This document shows positions 7,793-15,252 of a stretch of 36,927 bases of DNA, in pieces (the first letter of the stretch is position 1; each line of letters starts with the position of its first letter). The position numbers and the translations under genes were made by a program. Origin of the DNA: an uncultured Actinomycetes bacterium (GTDB taxonomy: Bacteria; Actinomycetota; Acidimicrobiia; Acidimicrobiales; SZUA-35); assembly GCA_902826025.1 (NCBI GenBank), contig CADEDH010000013.1, positions 18,975 through 55,901 on the forward strand, read 5' to 3'. The notes beneath the pieces were generated by a model. The model did not search any database. It worked only from the letters and a program-made list of their open reading frames with translations, and was not told the DNA's origin.

Positions 7793-8866
7793 ATGACAAC
7801 GGCTGCCCCCCTCACGGCCTCACCTCTGCTGCGGGCCCTGCGCCAGGAGCCGGGCGACCGGGTGCCGGTGTGGTTCATGCGCCAGGCCGGGCGGTCGTTG
7901 CCCGAGTACTTCGCCGTCCGGGGCGAGGGCTCGATCCTGGACGCCATCTCCGATCCCGACCGGGCCACCGAGATCACGCTCCAGCCGGTACGGCGCTACG
8001 GGGTCGACGCCGCCATCCTGTTCAGCGACATCATGACGCCGGTGTGGGTCTCGGGATTCGGGGTCGACATCACCCCCGGCGTGGGCCCCGAGTGCGCTCA
8101 GCCCTTCCGCTCGGCCGACGACCTGGCCCGCCTCCGCCCCATCGACCCCGACCGCGACCTCCGGTTCCAGACCGAGACGGTTCGCAACCTGGTCAACGAG
8201 CTGACCGTGCCCCTCATCGGGTTCGCCGGCGCCCCCTTCACCCTGGCCGCGTACCTGGTGGAAGGCCGCCCCAGCCGGGAGTACGTGCACGTCAAGTCGC
8301 TGATGATGGGCGACCCCGACCTGTGGCACCGCCTGTGCGACCGCCTGGCCGATCTGGCCATCGCCACCCTCACCGCCCAGGTGGAGGCGGGGGCGTCCGC
8401 CGTGCAGCTGTTCGACTCCTGGGTGGGGGCGCTCCACCCCGAGCACTACCGGCGCTTCGTCGCCCCCCACTCGGCCCGGATCCTGGCCACCATGGCCGAC
8501 CAGGGCGTGCCCTGCATCCACTTCGGCATCAACTCGGGCGAGCTGCTCGACCAGATGGCGGCCCCCGGTGTGTCGTGCGTAGGGGTCGACTGGCGGACCC
8601 CGCTGGCCGCCGCCCGGGCCCGCACCGGTGGCCGGGTGGCGCTCCAGGGCAATCTCGACCCCGCTCTGCTGCTGGCCCCGTGGCCGGCGGTGGAGGCCGA
8701 GGTGCGGCGGGTGCTGGCCGACAACGCCGGCCACCCCGGCCACATCTTCAACCTGGGACACGGCGTGCTCCCCGCGACCGACCCCGACACCCTCAACGAG
8801 GTGGTCCGCCTCGTGCACGCCGAAGGGCGGGCCGACGGCGGGGCCCCGGAGCATCGGGAGACGTAG
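7793..8866 (+). CDS. hemE: Uroporphyrinogen III decarboxylase
   Basis: A 357-residue, full-length HemE. It decarboxylates the four acetate side chains of uroporphyrinogen III to give coproporphyrinogen III, in the cytosol. The signature PVWFMRQAGR is at residues 25-34, the catalytic Asp lies in LFSDIM (D79), and GFAGAPFTLAAYLVEG and the late HFGINSGELLDQMA and LQGNLDPALL segments match the family. The stop TAG (8864-8866) directly abuts the next ATG (8867), so hemE and hemG are co-transcribed. Codon use is ordinary for the window. The start is fixed by a -10 hexamer 8 nt upstream. Confidence 0.97.
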   Translation: MTTAAPLTASPLLRALRQEPGDRVPVWFMRQAGRSLPEYFAVRGEGSILDAISDPDRATEITLQPVRRYGVDAAILFSDIMTPVWVSGFGVDITPGVGPECAQPFRSADDLARLRPIDPDRDLRFQTETVRNLVNELTVPLIGFAGAPFTLAAYLVEGRPSREYVHVKSLMMGDPDLWHRLCDRLADLAIATLTAQVEAGASAVQLFDSWVGALHPEHYRRFVAPHSARILATMADQGVPCIHFGINSGELLDQMAAPGVSCVGVDWRTPLAAARARTGGRVALQGNLDPALLLAPWPAVEAEVRRVLADNAGHPGHIFNLGHGVLPATDPDTLNEVVRLVHAEGRADGGAPEHRET

Positions 8867-10252
8867 ATGAGCACGAGTTCAGCCCCAACCCGGTCAGCCA
8901 TCGTCATCGGGGGAGGGATCGCCGGCCTCAGCGCCGCCTTCGACCTCCACCGGGCCGGCTGGCGGGTGGACATCCACGAGGCGGCGGGCCTGTGGGGGGG
9001 CAAGGTGCAGTCGAGCCCGGTGGGCGACCGCCTGGTCGACGCCGGCCCCGACACCTTCCTGGCCCGAGCCACCGCCGGCTACCAGATGTGCCAGGACCTG
9101 GGCCTGGAAGGCGAGCTGACCAGCCCCGTGGCCCCGGTGCCGGCCTACATCGCCCGGGCCGGGCGCCTGTATCCCCTGCCCACCGGCTCCATGCTCGGCG
9201 TGCCGACAGACCTCGACGCCCTGGCCAACAACGGCCTGATCAGCGCCGAGGGGGTGGAGCGGGCCAAGGTGGACCTGTCGGCCGACGCCACCCCGCTGGT
9301 CGACGGTGACATCTCGATCGGGGCCCTGTGCCGGGCCCGACTGGGCGACGAGATCACCGACTGGCTGGTCGACCCCCTGATCGGCGGCATCAACGCCTCC
9401 GACATCGACCTGCTGTCGCTGCGGGCCGGGGCCCCCATCCTGGCCGCCGCCTACGACCTGGGGCCGTCGCTGGTCAAGAGCCTGGGCGAGATGATGCCGT
9501 CCACCGGGCCCACCCTGGGGTCGGCCAAGCCGGCCCAGCCCGTGTTCTACGGCCTGCCGGGCGGGATCGCCCGCATCGTCGACGGGATCATCGCCGCCCT
9601 CACCGCCGGCGGGGCCGGGCTCCACCTGAACAGCCCGATTGCCTCCCTGGCCGACGCCATGGCCCGGGCCGACGCCGTTGTGGTTGCCACCCCCACGGCC
9701 GCCGCCGCCCACCTGCTGGAGCCCGTCAGCCCGTCGGCAGCGGCCGAGCTGGCCGCCATCCCCTACTCCTCGGTGGCCCAGGCCGTGGTGGAGATCCCCC
9801 GGAGCGGGGTGGAGCGGGAGCTCGACGCCTCGGGGATCATGTTCCCCCGGGGTGAAGGTCGCCTGATCACGGCCTGCACCTGGCTGTCGTCGAAGTGGGC
9901 CCACTACCACCGGCCCGACAGCGTGCTGCTGCGCCTGTCGAGCGGCCGCTACGGCGACGAGCGCAACGCCGCCCTGACCGACGACGAGCTGGTCGATGCC
10001 CTGCTGGCCGACCTCCGCTCGGTGGAGGCGGTCACGGCCGAGCCCATCGCCCGCCGGGTGAAGCGGTGGACGCCGGCCTTCCCCCAGTACGCCCCCGGCC
10101 ATCTGGCCCGGGTGGAGCGGATCCTGGGGGCGGTGGCGGCCGACGCCCCCGCCCTGCGCCTGGTGGGCGCCGCTTACCGCGGCATCGGCGTGCCGGCCTG
10201 CATCGACGACGGCCGCTCGGCCGCCGCCTCCCTCGTCGACGCCCTGGGCTGA
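8867..10252 (+). CDS. hemG: Protoporphyrinogen/coproporphyrinogen oxidase, HemY type
   Basis: A 461-residue FAD enzyme of the oxygen-dependent HemY/HemG type. In Actinobacteria this type normally oxidises coproporphyrinogen III to coproporphyrin III in the coproporphyrin-dependent heme route. The FAD Rossmann motif GGGIAG is at 15-20, with the ribose-binding Glu near residue 38. The substrate-domain marks DAGPDTFLA, FYGLPGGIARIVDG and the C-terminal GAAYRGIGVPACIDDG are present. Translation should be coupled to hemE: GGGAG (8856-8860) lies inside the hemE end, 6 nt before the ATG. HemQ and ferrochelatase, the other steps of that route, are not in the window, so which porphyrinogen is the true substrate is inferred from lineage. 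Confidence 0.93.
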   Translation: MSTSSAPTRSAIVIGGGIAGLSAAFDLHRAGWRVDIHEAAGLWGGKVQSSPVGDRLVDAGPDTFLARATAGYQMCQDLGLEGELTSPVAPVPAYIARAGRLYPLPTGSMLGVPTDLDALANNGLISAEGVERAKVDLSADATPLVDGDISIGALCRARLGDEITDWLVDPLIGGINASDIDLLSLRAGAPILAAAYDLGPSLVKSLGEMMPSTGPTLGSAKPAQPVFYGLPGGIARIVDGIIAALTAGGAGLHLNSPIASLADAMARADAVVVATPTAAAAHLLEPVSPSAAAELAAIPYSSVAQAVVEIPRSGVERELDASGIMFPRGEGRLITACTWLSSKWAHYHRPDSVLLRLSSGRYGDERNAALTDDELVDALLADLRSVEAVTAEPIARRVKRWTPAFPQYAPGHLARVERILGAVAADAPALRLVGAAYRGIGVPACIDDGRSAAASLVDALG

Positions 10253-10268
10253 GGGAACTCAACCGGCG

Positions 10269-11873
10269 GTGGGACCCGACGACGGCGCCGTGCCCCCCGC
10301 CGATCCGCCGAACTCCGTCGCGGTATCGCGCCCAGGAGTCGACACCGCGACGGAGAATGCCGACGGGGCGCGTTCTCGCGTCGAGCCTGAGGCGGCCGGG
10401 GCGCCCCGACCCCGGCGCTGGGAGCGGCGGCCGGCGGTGGCCGGGCGGTGCGTGCTGGCCGGGTTGGGTCTGGCCGCCTCGGTGCCCCCCTGGGGTTGGT
10501 GGCCCCTGGCCTTCGTGGGCGTCGCCCTGCTCGACGGGCTCCTGGCCGACCAGCCGTGGCGCCGCCGACTGGGCCGCACCTGGCTGGTGGCGGCGGCCTG
10601 GCTGTACCCGGCCATGCTGTGGATGTACGACCTGACGGCCCCCGGCTACGTGGTGGCGGGCGGCTTCTTCGCCGGTTACTTCGCCCTGGCCGCCGTGCTC
10701 ACCCCGGCCACCCGGCCAGGCCGCCTGGTGGTGCTGCCGGGGGCCTTCGCCCTGGCCGAGCTGGCCCGGTGGTCCTGGCCCTTCGGCGGCGTGCCCCTGG
10801 CCCACCTGGCCCTGGGCCAGGCCTCGGCTCCCCTGGCCGTGCTGGCCCGGCTCGGCGGGTCCCTGCTGGTGGTGATGGGGGTGGTGGCCGTGGGCCAGGC
10901 CCTCGCCTCGGCCGCCCGGCGTGACCTGCGGGCCGCCGCCGCCGGCCTGGCGGCGGTGCTGACCCTCGGCATCACGGCCGCCGCCTGGCCCCGTTCCCAG
11001 GCCGTCCGGGAGGCCACCGTGGCCCTGGTGCAGGGGGGCGGCCGCCAGCGGACCCGGGCCTCATCGGACCAGGAACCAGTGGTGCTGGCCCGCCAGGTAG
11101 AGGCCAGCCGCCTCGTCGATGGCCCGGTCGACCTCGTGATCTGGCCCGAGAACGTGGTCAACCCCAACGGCGTCACCCTCACCCGGGCCCGGGCCGACGA
11201 GCTGGTGCGACGGGTGGCGGCCGAGGTGGGGGCACCGGTGCTGGCTGGCTGGTTCTACGCCGTGTCGAGCACCGACACGGTGAACTACCAGTCGACGATC
11301 CTGCCCGACGGGGAGGAGATCGACCGCTACGACAAGCGCAACATCGTCCCGTTCGGCGAGTACGTGCCGCTGCGGGGTCTGATCGAGCGGTTCAGCCGCG
11401 AGCTGCCGGCCCACGACGTGCGGCGGGGCACCAACGATCCCGTGCTCGAGACCCCGGTGGGCCCGGTGGGGGTGGCTATCTCGTGGGAAGGGTTCTTCGA
11501 GACCCGGGCCCGGGCGTCGACCCGGGACGGAGCCGAGCTGCTCGCCAACCCCACCAACGGCGCGTCCTACTGGCTGACGCAGATCCACACCCAGCAGGTG
11601 GCGTCGAACCAGCTGCGGGCGATCGAAAACGATCGCTGGGTGCTGCAGGTGGCGCCCACTGGCATGTCGGCCGTGATCGACCCCGACGGCAACGTGGTCC
11701 AGCGAACCGGGGTCTCGGAGCGGGCGGTGCTGATCGACACGGTGGAGCTGCGCCGGGGCCGGACTCCGGCCAGCCGCCTCGGTTTCTGGCCGGTGGCCCT
11801 GTACGGGATGGGGGCGATCGCGGTGTTCAGAGCTCGGCCGCTGGCCCGCCTACGCCCACGTCCCAGCCGTTGA
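10269..11873 (+). CDS. lnt: Apolipoprotein N-acyltransferase-like membrane protein with Ser in place of the catalytic Cys
   Basis: 534 residues from GTG 10269. Several hydrophobic segments from about residue 57 to 240 are followed by a carbon-nitrogen hydrolase domain. The family moves an acyl chain from phospholipid to the N-terminal Cys of lipoproteins, on the outer face of the membrane. The triad Glu (WPEN, E294) and Lys (YDKRNIVPFGEYVP, K356) are present. The third position, Cys in the E. coli ICYE motif, reads ISWE here (Ser405, codon 11481-11483). The first 56 residues are low-complexity and are encoded over a palindromic repeat (10300-10355). A later start such as GTG 10437 is therefore plausible. 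The gap to hemG is 16 bp. Lipoproteins are encoded in the window (24227, 25525), so a working Lnt would make sense, but activity is uncertain. Confidence 0.85.
   Translation: MGPDDGAVPPADPPNSVAVSRPGVDTATENADGARSRVEPEAAGAPRPRRWERRPAVAGRCVLAGLGLAASVPPWGWWPLAFVGVALLDGLLADQPWRRRLGRTWLVAAAWLYPAMLWMYDLTAPGYVVAGGFFAGYFALAAVLTPATRPGRLVVLPGAFALAELARWSWPFGGVPLAHLALGQASAPLAVLARLGGSLLVVMGVVAVGQALASAARRDLRAAAAGLAAVLTLGITAAAWPRSQAVREATVALVQGGGRQRTRASSDQEPVVLARQVEASRLVDGPVDLVIWPENVVNPNGVTLTRARADELVRRVAAEVGAPVLAGWFYAVSSTDTVNYQSTILPDGEEIDRYDKRNIVPFGEYVPLRGLIERFSRELPAHDVRRGTNDPVLETPVGPVGVAISWEGFFETRARASTRDGAELLANPTNGASYWLTQIHTQQVASNQLRAIENDRWVLQVAPTGMSAVIDPDGNVVQRTGVSERAVLIDTVELRRGRTPASRLGFWPVALYGMGAIAVFRARPLARLRPRPSR
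10300..10355. repeat. Palindromic repeat at the hemG/lnt junction, related to 19876-20002
   Basis: CTCCGTCGCGGT (10313-10324) and ACCGCGACGGAG (10344-10355) are perfect 12-bp inverted arms. The left flank CCGATCCGCCGAACT (10300-10314) is identical, in opposite orientation, to 19988-20002; the match continues to 22 of 24 bases. This suggests a dispersed REP-like element sitting between hemG and the conserved part of lnt. Confidence 0.65.
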
Positions 11874-11967
11874 GCGGCACGTCGCCGGTCACGCCGTCGA
11901 CGGCCGGGATGCCTCCCCGGCCGGGGTCGGCAGGGCGACGCCAGGCCCGGGTCGAGCGGCCGCGAAG

Positions 11968-11998
11968 TTGCATCGGGCCCGGTACCGGGCGGTAAGGT
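11968..11998 (+). promoter_or_regulatory. TetR-gene promoter with palindromic operator in the spacer
   Basis: TTGCAT (11968-11973) and TAAGGT (11993-11998) form -35 and -10 elements 19 bp apart. The -10 ends 6 nt before ATG 12005. The spacer contains GCCCGGTACCGGGC (11977-11990), a perfect 14-bp palindrome. That position suits autorepression by the encoded TetR protein. Confidence 0.6.
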
Positions 11999-12004
11999 CG
12001 GCCG

Positions 12005-12625
12005 ATGCCCAAGCCGACGGGGGATGCGGCGAGAGGCCGCGAAGCAGTAGAGGCAGCCCTGTTGGAGGCGGCCGGCGATCTGCTGGCCGAGGTCGGTCCC
12101 CGGGCGGCCACGGTGCGGGACATCGCGGCCCGGGCCGGCGTCAACCACGCCCAGGTCCACCACTACTTCGGTGGCAAGCGGGCCCTGCTGATGGCGGCCA
12201 TGGAACGGATGGCGGCCCAGCACTTCGAGGCCATGCGGGCCCTGTCGTCGGGTCCGGTGCCCCCACCCCTCACCCTGCCCGACGACCAGCGCTACTGGTG
12301 GGCCATCGTGCGAGCCACGATCGAGGGCGACCTGGAGCTGGCCGGCGTCGAGGTCGAGGCCGGCACGTCGGTGATCCGCAACGTCATGGATCACGTGGTC
12401 CGCCGGTTCGGGCTGGCCGAGCCCACGGTGGAGATGAAAGCGGCCTCGGCCGAGCTGGCGGCGGTGCAGCTGGGGTGGCTCACCATGGAGCGGTTCATCC
12501 TCATGGCGTTGGGCGTCGAACCCGAGGAGGAGGAGCTGGTGCGCGAGCGGCTGCGACGCTCGCTCGCCCAGCGCCGCCTCCAGCCGCCCGACGGCGTCCC
12601 CTTCTACAGCCGCCGCCGGGCGTAG
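12005..12625 (+). CDS. TetR/AcrR family transcriptional regulator
   Basis: A 206-residue repressor-type protein. The N-terminal helix-turn-helix reads TVRDIAARAGVNHAQVHHYF (about 37-56), with the usual GGKRALLMAAM following. The C-terminal ligand domain is helical and not assignable to a subfamily with a known ligand. The start is a leaderless ATG 6 nt after a -10 that brackets a perfect palindrome, so autorepression is likely. The gene is alone on its strand here, preceded by lnt and convergent with dtd after 8 bp. Possible targets by proximity are its own promoter and the divergent dtd/glycosyltransferase region, but no second copy of the palindrome was spotted there. Confidence 0.9.
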   Translation: MPKPTGDAARGREAVEAALLEAAGDLLAEVGPRAATVRDIAARAGVNHAQVHHYFGGKRALLMAAMERMAAQHFEAMRALSSGPVPPPLTLPDDQRYWWAIVRATIEGDLELAGVEVEAGTSVIRNVMDHVVRRFGLAEPTVEMKAASAELAAVQLGWLTMERFILMALGVEPEEEELVRERLRRSLAQRRLQPPDGVPFYSRRRA

Positions 12626-12633
12626 GTCCGCCG

Positions 12634-13071
12634 CTACAGATCCAGCACGATCGTGACCGGGCCCTGGTTGAGGAGGCGGACGTCCATGTCGGCCCCGAAC
12701 CGTCCGGTGGCCACCCGGACCCCCTGGGCTGCGATCCGCTCGGCCACCCGGGCCACCAGCGGTTCGGCCTGCTCAGGGCGGGCGGCGTCGGAGTAGCTCG
12801 GCCGGTTACCCCGGACCGCCTCCCCATACAGGGTGAACTGGCTGATCACGAGGACCTCACCGCCGGTGTCGAGCACCGAGCGGTTCATCTTGCCCTCCTC
12901 GTCGTTGAAGATCCGCAGCTTGGGCAACCGCAGGGCCAGCTTGTCGGCCTCGGCCTCCCCGTCGGCGTGGGTCACGCCCACCAGCACGCACAGGCCGGGC
13001 CCGATGGCGCCCACCACCTCGCCCTCCACCGTCACCGACGCCTCGCTGACCCGCTGCACCACTGCTCGCAT
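12634..13071 (-). CDS. dtd: D-aminoacyl-tRNA deacylase
   Basis: 145 residues, full length. Dtd removes D-amino acids (and glycine) mischarged onto tRNAs, in the cytosol. The family core is clear: the N-terminal [15 protein letters not shown], the SQFTLYG motif with Thr80, and NQGPVT near residues 134-139 carrying the cross-subunit Gly-Pro motif. It is transcribed divergently from the glycosyltransferase operon, and a -10 (TAACCT, complement of 13078-13083) ends 6 nt before the ATG. The 3' end faces the TetR gene with an 8-bp gap. Confidence 0.96.
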
Positions 13072-13077
13072 GGGAGC

Positions 13078-13083
13078 AGGTTA
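13078..13083 (-). promoter_or_regulatory. -10 hexamer TAACCT, leaderless start for dtd
   Basis: On the minus strand TAACCT ends 6 nt before ATG 13071. An identical TAACCT stands on the plus strand at 13097-13102, and TAACTT at 13113-13118. The short divergent region thus has mirror-image promoters, the plus-strand ones serving the glycosyltransferase operon. Confidence 0.55.
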
Positions 13084-13195
13084 GAGAAACGAGCCGTAAC
13101 CTTACGCCGTAGTAACTTGTGCCGCGGGGTGGATGGTGGATCGGGGAGGGCCGGCCGGCATGTCGCTCCGTCGACCCGGCGATAGGAAGTACCCC

Positions 13196-14476
13196 ATGCC
13201 ATCCCCGACCCCGCCGTCCGAGGGCCGCCCGCTCCGGCTCGCCTACCTGTCGTACCGGTCGAAACCGACGGTGGGCGGCCAGGGCATCTACACCCGCCAC
13301 CTCACCAAGGCCCTGGCCGATCTGGGCCACGAGGTGGAGGTGCTGTCGGGCCAGCCCTATCCGGTGCTCGACCCCCGGGTGCGTCTCACCCAGCTGCCCA
13401 GCCTCGATATCTTCAACGACCTGTATCCCGGTCGGATGCCGGCCTTCTGGGAGCTCAAGAGCCTGTCCGACCTGATCGAGGTCACCCAGTACTCGGCCGG
13501 CACGTTCTCCGAGCCGCTGGCCTTCAGCCACCGGGCCTACCGGGCCCTCAAGGCCCGCACCGCCGAGTTCGACCTGGTGCACGACAACCAGTGCCTGGGC
13601 TACGGGGTGCTGGCCATCAACAAGATCCTGCCCACGGTGGTCACCCTCCACCACCCGATCACGGTCGACCGGCGCCTGGAGATGGCGGCCGCCCCCAACT
13701 GGCACAAGCGGATCAGCATCGCCCGCTGGTACGGCTTCGTGAAGATGCAGGGCCGGGTGGCCCGCCGCATGCCCCGCATCGTGGTGGTGTCGGAGAACTC
13801 GATCGACGACATCAGCCGCGACATGGGGGTGGACCGCGACCGGATGCGCCTGGTCCACGTGGGTGTCGACACCGATCTGTTCCAGCCCCAGCCCGGAGTG
13901 ACCCGGATCCCCGGCCGGTTGATCACCACGGCCAGCGCCGACGTTGAGCTGAAGGGTCTCCGGTTCCTGCTGGAAGCGATCGCCAAGCTGCGCACCGAGC
14001 GTGAGGTGTCGCTCACCGTGATCGGGCGGGCCAAGCCGGGGGGCCGGTCGGCCGAGCTGATCGACCGGTTGGGCCTGACCGACGCCATCGAGTTCGTCAC
14101 CGGTGTGCCCGACGAGCGGATCGTGGAGCTGTACGCCCAGTCCGAGCTGGCTGTCGTGCCGTCGCTGTACGAGGGGTTCTCGCTCCCGGCGGTGGAGGCC
14201 ATGGCCACCGGCACCCCGCTGGTGGCCACCACCGGGGGCGCCCTGCCCGAAGTGACGGGCGCCGACGGCGACACCGTGCTCCAGTGCCGCCCGGGCGATC
14301 CCGACTCGCTGGCCGCCGCCCTGCGGCGGGGCCTGGAGGATCCCGAGCTGCGGGCCCGGGTGGGGGCCGCCGGGCGGGCCCGGGTGACCGAGCGCTACAC
14401 CTGGCGCCTCACCGCCCAGCGCACCGTCGAGCAGTACCGCGAGGTGCTGGCCATGCGGGCAGCGGCCGGGTGCTGA
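13196..14476 (+). CDS. GT4-family glycosyltransferase
   Basis: 426 residues from ATG 13196, which has AGGAAG upstream with a 6-nt spacer; an in-frame ATG at 13133 would add 21 unconserved residues. It is a retaining GT-B fold enzyme. The N-terminal acceptor domain has the glycine-rich VGGQGIYTRHL loop. The C-terminal nucleotide-sugar domain has KGLRFLLEAIAKL, VIGRAK, VPDERIVELYAQSELAVVPS and the E-x7-E-type EGFSLPAVE motif. The sugar and acceptor are unknown. It overlaps the next gene by 7 bp and heads a three-gene operon with a methyltransferase and a toroid-fold protein, suggesting that it helps to build a methylated glycoconjugate. Confidence 0.92.
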   Translation: MPSPTPPSEGRPLRLAYLSYRSKPTVGGQGIYTRHLTKALADLGHEVEVLSGQPYPVLDPRVRLTQLPSLDIFNDLYPGRMPAFWELKSLSDLIEVTQYSAGTFSEPLAFSHRAYRALKARTAEFDLVHDNQCLGYGVLAINKILPTVVTLHHPITVDRRLEMAAAPNWHKRISIARWYGFVKMQGRVARRMPRIVVVSENSIDDISRDMGVDRDRMRLVHVGVDTDLFQPQPGVTRIPGRLITTASADVELKGLRFLLEAIAKLRTEREVSLTVIGRAKPGGRSAELIDRLGLTDAIEFVTGVPDERIVELYAQSELAVVPSLYEGFSLPAVEAMATGTPLVATTGGALPEVTGADGDTVLQCRPGDPDSLAAALRRGLEDPELRARVGAAGRARVTERYTWRLTAQRTVEQYREVLAMRAAAGC

Positions 14477-15252
14477 CCGTCGACTACGACCGCCTGGGCC
14501 TCACCCCGGGGATGCGGGTGCTCGACCTGGGCTCGGGCTTCGGCCGGCACGCCTTCGAGACGGCCCGGCGGGGGGCCCACGTGGTGGCCGTCGATCTGGC
14601 GTTGGACGAGCTGGTGGCCACCCGGGCCACGTTCCAGGCCATGGCCGAGGCCAGGGAACTGGGGGACGATGTGAGCTGCACCGTCGCCCGGGCCGACGGG
14701 GCCCGCCTGCCGTTCGCCAGCGGCACGTTCGACCGGATCATCGCCAGCGAGGTGCTGGAGCACGTGCCCGACGACCTGGCGGTGATGGCCGAGCTCCACC
14801 GGGTGCTCCGCCCCGGCGGGCGCCTGGCGGCCACCGTGCCGGCCGCCGTGCCCGAGCAGATCTGCTGGTGGCTGAACGAGGCCTACCACGCCCCGATCAG
14901 CGCTGGCGGCCACGTGCGGATCTACGGCCGGCCCGAGCTGCGCACCAAGTTGGCGGCCAGTGGGTTCGTGCCGGTGGGCGACCACCGGGCCCACGCCTTG
15001 CACAGCCCGTACTGGTGGCTGAAATGCGCCGTGGGGCTCGACAACGACGCCAACCCGCTGGTGAAGGCGTACCACAAGCTGCTGGTGTGGGACATCACCG
15101 ACGCCCCCCGCCTCACCCGCACCACCGAGCGGTGGCTCAACCCGGTGCTGGGCAAGAGCCTGGTCGTCTACGCCGACAAACCGGAGGCGGTCGACGTCCG
15201 GGTGCCCACCCTGGTGGGCGCGGCCCGCCAACCGGGGCGCCAGCCAGGGTGA
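14470..15252 (+). CDS. Class I SAM-dependent methyltransferase
   Basis: 260 residues from GTG 14470, whose start overlaps the end of the glycosyltransferase gene (GTGCTGA). Translation is probably coupled. SAM motif I is VLDLGSGFGRH (about 17-27), an acidic residue follows in VVAVDLALDEL, and the typical FDRIIASEVLEHVPDD and LRPGGRLAATVP segments place it in the Methyltransf_11 group. The C-terminal half carries YHAPISAGGHVRIYG and HSPYWWLKCAVGLDND, which look lineage-specific. The substrate is unknown; the operon suggests a sugar or lipid-linked sugar. The gene ends 4 bp before the next GTG. Confidence 0.92.
   Translation: MLTVDYDRLGLTPGMRVLDLGSGFGRHAFETARRGAHVVAVDLALDELVATRATFQAMAEARELGDDVSCTVARADGARLPFASGTFDRIIASEVLEHVPDDLAVMAELHRVLRPGGRLAATVPAAVPEQICWWLNEAYHAPISAGGHVRIYGRPELRTKLAASGFVPVGDHRAHALHSPYWWLKCAVGLDNDANPLVKAYHKLLVWDITDAPRLTRTTERWLNPVLGKSLVVYADKPEAVDVRVPTLVGAARQPGRQPG

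Follow-up and report, generated by a model that had tools for sequence, protein, structure and literature searches.

A lipoprotein N-acyltransferase homologue with serine at the nucleophile position is the sole Lnt in most of the Acidimicrobiales

The gene at positions 10269-11873 (+ strand) of the window, the 36,927-nucleotide stretch of Acidimicrobiales DNA that was analysed, probably encodes a catalytically active apolipoprotein N-acyltransferase (Lnt) that has Ser405 in place of the catalytic cysteine and would form an oxygen-ester acyl-enzyme. Lnt normally adds the third fatty acid to bacterial lipoproteins via a cysteine, and the textbook enzyme is defined by this residue. In the mechanism that we propose, Glu294, with Lys356 and Glu364, would activate the hydroxyl of Ser405, which would carry the acyl group as an oxygen ester, with a lipoprotein as the acceptor. 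We infer the catalytic activity, the ester intermediate and the acceptor from sequence and structural comparison. It is about an even call whether a wider reading also holds, namely that the gene belongs to a natural, working branch of the nitrilase superfamily with a Ser nucleophile, in which an oxygen-ester Lnt would be a whole order's only lipoprotein N-acyltransferase, the change from Cys to Ser would be convergent in at least four lineages and apparently reversed once, and a coupled change would have taken place at position 431, after a conserved Asn.

The gene product is a full-length Lnt homologue

Counted from a GTG at 10269, the gene encodes 534 amino acids; translation may in fact begin further downstream, as residues 1-51 lack confident modelling. 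The original prediction that the product is a homologue of Lnt was borne out by a match to the curated equivalog model TIGR00546 (lnt) with a score of 197.8 bits (cut-off 132.9), by Pfam matches to PF20154 (LNT_N) and PF00795 (CN_hydrolase), and by its fold. The AlphaFold (AF2) model (mean pLDDT 86.6, pTM 0.86) aligns with E. coli Lnt (8b0p_A) over 473 residues (Z 40.0, 2.8 A), and its structural matches include the E. coli C387S entries 5vrh and 8b0m; soluble nitrilases come next in the ranking (Z 26), with the nitrilase domain alone aligned. The Pfam matches and the model together show that the N-terminal membrane domain, the nitrilase domain and the C-terminal helix are all present, and a family profile of 23 relatives, used for a sequence search of the PDB, matches the solved E. 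coli and P. aeruginosa Lnts across almost their entire length.

By its domain content, the product of 10269-11873 is a full-length, colinear Lnt with a membrane domain and a nitrilase domain, and the match of its fold to E. coli Lnt argues for a working enzyme. The same layout, together with the score above the equivalog cut-off, speaks against a rather unlikely alternative, in which the protein would be active through its Ser, as an acyltransferase or acylhydrolase, but on a different acceptor, such as a glycolipid, an amino lipid or water, and the exchange to Ser would mark a change of substrate.

Serine occupies the nucleophile position

The nucleophile position, equivalent to C387 of E. 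coli Lnt, is occupied by Ser405, which is encoded by TCG at 11481-11483 (+). Both the codon and the profile alignment agree on this point with the original prediction: the best PDB sequence match of the profile is the E. coli C387S mutant 5vrh, and Ser405 is aligned on Ser387 (iSwEvFFadRaregv of the window protein on iSYEIILGEQVRDNF of 5vrh). Placing the family profile on E. coli Lnt also upheld the claim that the triad alignment is unambiguous and that its Glu and Lys are present. Glu294 (11148-11150, +; E. coli E267), the triad general base, is invariant in the Ser and Cys homologues that cover the position, and the triad lysine, Lys356 (11334-11336, +; E. coli K335), is invariant as well. 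The second Glu, Glu364 (11358-11360, +; E. coli E343), is invariant in the Ser clades, and Glu407 (11487-11489, +; E. coli E389) is invariant in all Ser homologues. Because Glu294 and Lys356 are present and Ser405 replaces the Cys of the Glu-Lys-Cys triad, we class the protein as a Ser-type Lnt homologue and not as a classical Lnt.

No alternative catalytic Cys that could take over was found, the nucleophile position being in register across the 313 sequences of the survey described below. A sequencing or assembly artefact, or a misalignment, is a vanishingly improbable cause of Ser405 and was rejected: the gene is present in 39 of the 39 genomes of the window's family, and every same-type copy read in the order and family, from independent assemblies, has Ser, so the TCG at 11481-11483 is not an error. 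E. coli W237 and H425 are not conserved in the window protein, which counts against a working enzyme. The position of H425 is variable in Cys-type Lnts too, and H425 was discarded as a candidate for a residue coupled to Ser because the Ser clades are inconsistent there.

Only cysteine and serine are found among the homologues

The survey covered 313 distinct homologues, drawn from the class, from the rest of the phylum and from outside it, and the residue at the nucleophile could be read in 312. Cys was found in 167 of these sequences (including L002 and L232, which are nitrilases without a membrane domain) and Ser in 145, with no other residue present. The Acidimicrobiales-type clade had Ser in 108 of 108 sequences, encoded by TCN codons in 99 cases and by AGY codons in 8, a count that excludes the window's own TCG. 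The use of both codon blocks indicates that Ser itself has been kept and not one codon; this and the restriction to Cys or Ser across the 312 sequences argue for a working Ser-type Lnt. A second Ser clade contains 28 sequences, mostly from other families of the class (f12, f15, f17, f20, f23, f28, f31 and f32) and with L304, L318 and L337 from outside it. The remaining Ser forms are seven sequences from f88 and two second copies from f110.

The survey bears on the proposal, also made in the original prediction, that the enzyme is dead. Such a pseudoenzyme would have been retained as a structural or chaperone factor for lipoproteins, and we regard this as quite improbable. Dead sites drift, yet Ala, Gly, Thr or any other residue took the place of Ser in 0 of 145 sequences, and the Glu, Lys and Glu of the active site are invariant; in addition, there were several gains of Ser, and one Ser clade encloses a Cys form, as described in the next section. 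Loss of activity would fit the natural Ser paralogue BCG_2279c, which gives no N-acylation alone (PMC3850990), and the dispensability of Lnt in part of the order, both of which are taken up below.

Several individual cases were noted in the survey. A genome from another order (G028, f22) contains a Ser-type lnt (L006) with 51% identity to that of the window, and its genus mate G076 has a Cys-type gene (L180); L006 reflects either horizontal transfer or a misbinned contig. One genome from outside the class (G507, f111; L251 and L303) holds both a Ser-type copy that is basal to the Acidimicrobiales-type clade and a Cys-type copy, and the former is a possible case of transfer between classes. Two adjacent Ser-type lnt genes in G026 (f12; L212 and L212b) represent a tandem duplication.

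Repeated changes between cysteine and serine

When the nucleophile columns were excluded from tree building, the Cys/Ser trait needed five changes on the resulting tree, four of which were forced by well supported branches. The window protein was placed in a separate Ser clade of 26 rows with a support of 100, and a single clade of all Ser forms was rejected (AU p about 1e-59). A common origin of all Ser forms was dismissed on the basis of this test and the forced switches, and identity with the mycobacterial (BCG_2279c) type of Ser paralogue was dismissed because the window protein does not group with the Streptomyces-type second copies. On this tree, Ser arose independently several times in Actinomycetota.

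The f26 Cys forms L343 and L344 are nested among the Ser forms of the second clade, and holding these Ser rows together was rejected (AU p 0.003). This nesting suggests a return to Cys or repeated gains of Ser, and it appears to be a return from Ser to Cys. The four or more forced switches and the Cys forms inside a Ser clade argue for a working Ser-type enzyme, and the nesting suggests that the two forms have the same task, contrary to what a change of acceptor would predict.

Conservation of the active site and a candidate coupled change

An average column has undergone 20.1 changes on the tree within the Acidimicrobiales-type clade, against none at Ser. If the Ser column changed at the mean rate, such constancy would have a probability of 1.8e-9; at a fifth of that rate, the probability would be 0.018. 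Glu294, Lys356, Glu364 and Glu407 are invariant alongside Ser in this clade, and the lack of change at all five positions speaks against a dead site.

Besides the nucleophile, Ser and Cys forms are told apart best by position 431, which is Gly in the window protein (11559-11561, +) and corresponds to D413 of E. coli Lnt. This position is Asn or Asp in 150 of 164 Cys forms versus 4 of 144 Ser forms. A pair test corrected for kinship gave a p of 0.25 at best, and with only 4-5 independent pairs the coupling cannot be called significant; the distribution is suggestive of a change at 431 coupled with that to Ser.

The Ser form is the sole Lnt in most of the order

The only LNT_N (PF20154) match in the window genome is the Ser-type lnt itself. 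A second Lnt with Cys had been suggested elsewhere in this genome, and the search did not find one: the second TIGR00546 match is weak and belongs to L002, a soluble nitrilase that has its own Cys. The genome carries one copy each of lgt and lspA, and Lit as a replacement enzyme is absent from it, a gene set that argues for a working Lnt at 10269-11873.

Across the order, LNT_N is present in 96 of 118 genomes, nearly always as a single copy, and lgt was found in 18 of the 18 genomes checked. The Ser form is thus the sole Lnt in most of the order; this, with the presence of lgt, speaks against an acceptor other than lipoproteins. The co-occurrence of Ser and Cys forms within one genome in f51 (where the Cys form is of the second-copy type), f110 and f111 is what would be expected if the two forms had different tasks. 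In f15, a relative within the class that has genomes of 0.7-1.1 Mb, 31 of 34 genomes retain lnt, and all three copies read have Ser; this retention again favors a working enzyme.

Two families of the order, f3 and f5, include near-complete genomes (G014, G047, G055 and others) in which Lgt is present and Lnt is absent. Lnt can therefore be lost, and N-acylation is not strictly needed in these cells, which counts against a working Ser-type Lnt. The absence in f3 and f5 could reflect a natural loss of lipoprotein N-acylation or the presence of a replacement enzyme. A virus-borne origin of the gene was also considered, and no relative was encoded on any viral contig searched.

Comparison with known Lnt proteins

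The E. coli and P. aeruginosa enzymes (5n6h, 8b0p and 5n6m) share with the window protein the whole fold, the triad Glu and Lys, the second Glu, E389, the conserved Asn strand region and the C-terminal helix. Apart from the loss of W237 and H425, the window protein differs from E. coli Lnt in having Ser for Cys387, Trp for Tyr388 and Gly for Asp413. The second Glu, E343, is essential in E. coli Lnt (PMC3850990).

The nucleophile of the window protein is the same as that of E. coli C387S (5vrh and 8b0m), the customary inactive control for this enzyme. C387S forms an oxygen-ester acyl-enzyme and fails in the transfer to apolipoprotein (PMC6828757), and it has been described as having "low activity" (PMC10313180). 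Formation of the oxygen ester and the residual activity are points in favor of a working Ser-type Lnt, and the ester intermediate put forward in the original prediction is judged to be the most likely chemistry of the window protein. That the mutant transfers little or nothing is a point against it, and a protein that performs the first half-reaction and hardly the second could instead serve another acceptor. C387S is, however, a laboratory mutant, whereas in the natural Ser family the remainder of the site has had ample evolutionary time to adapt.

In slow-growing mycobacteria, Ser has naturally replaced Cys at the nucleophile position of one Lnt homologue (BCG_2279c; Rv2262c-Rv2261c; PMC3850990). 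BCG_2279c, the second Lnt homologue of M. bovis BCG, does not N-acylate alone and cannot replace BCG_2070c, and a contributory role was left open by the authors (PMC3850990). The inability of this Ser form to replace a Cys enzyme counts against a working Ser-type Lnt. However, BCG_2279c is a second paralogue in organisms that also have a functional Cys enzyme, whereas the window protein is the only Lnt, order-wide, and has a separate Ser origin. The likely counterparts of BCG_2279c in our survey are L311 and L315 of f110, a presumably mycobacterial family, in the Streptomyces-type second-copy clade.

In the open-access literature, we found no report of a Ser-type Lnt in Acidimicrobiia/Actinobacteria or of Ser nucleophiles in the nitrilase superfamily, and the BCG paper (PMC3850990) was the sole case found of a natural Ser-type Lnt; no description of such a protein as the sole, order-wide enzyme was found there. 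If an order does rely on a Ser-type Lnt, it would reveal what else must change for a Ser nucleophile to work. A working enzyme of this type would also matter for the interpretation of BCG_2279c and other natural Ser paralogues and would caution against annotating Ser forms as dead, and thiol-directed Lnt inhibitors should not affect it. The repeated switches, with a Cys lineage among Ser forms, provide a comparative series for dissecting the Lnt mechanism.

Gene neighbourhood

The lnt gene lies downstream of hemE (URO-D, PF01208; 7820-8866, +, with an approximate start) and a hemG/hemY-like FAD oxidoreductase gene (PF01593; 8867-10252, +). Downstream of lnt are dtd, for a D-aminoacyl-tRNA deacylase (PF02580; 12634-13071, -), a GT4 glycosyltransferase gene (PF00534/PF13439; 13133-14476, +) and a SAM methyltransferase gene (PF08241; open reading frame 14284-15252, +, with a real start probably near 14477). 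This neighbourhood of six genes (7820-15252) is conserved across Acidimicrobiales relatives, and those that were examined lacked the TetR gene seen at 12005-12625 of the window. The conserved clustering of lnt with the glycosyltransferase and methyltransferase genes would suit an acceptor other than a lipoprotein; the neighbourhood as a whole does not discriminate between a working Lnt, an enzyme with another acceptor and a pseudoenzyme. An Acidimicrobiales-like Ser-type lnt (L107) with hemE, hemG, GT4 and methyltransferase neighbours is present in a record titled Acidobacteria bacterium REEB451, which is probably a misclassified or misbinned assembly.
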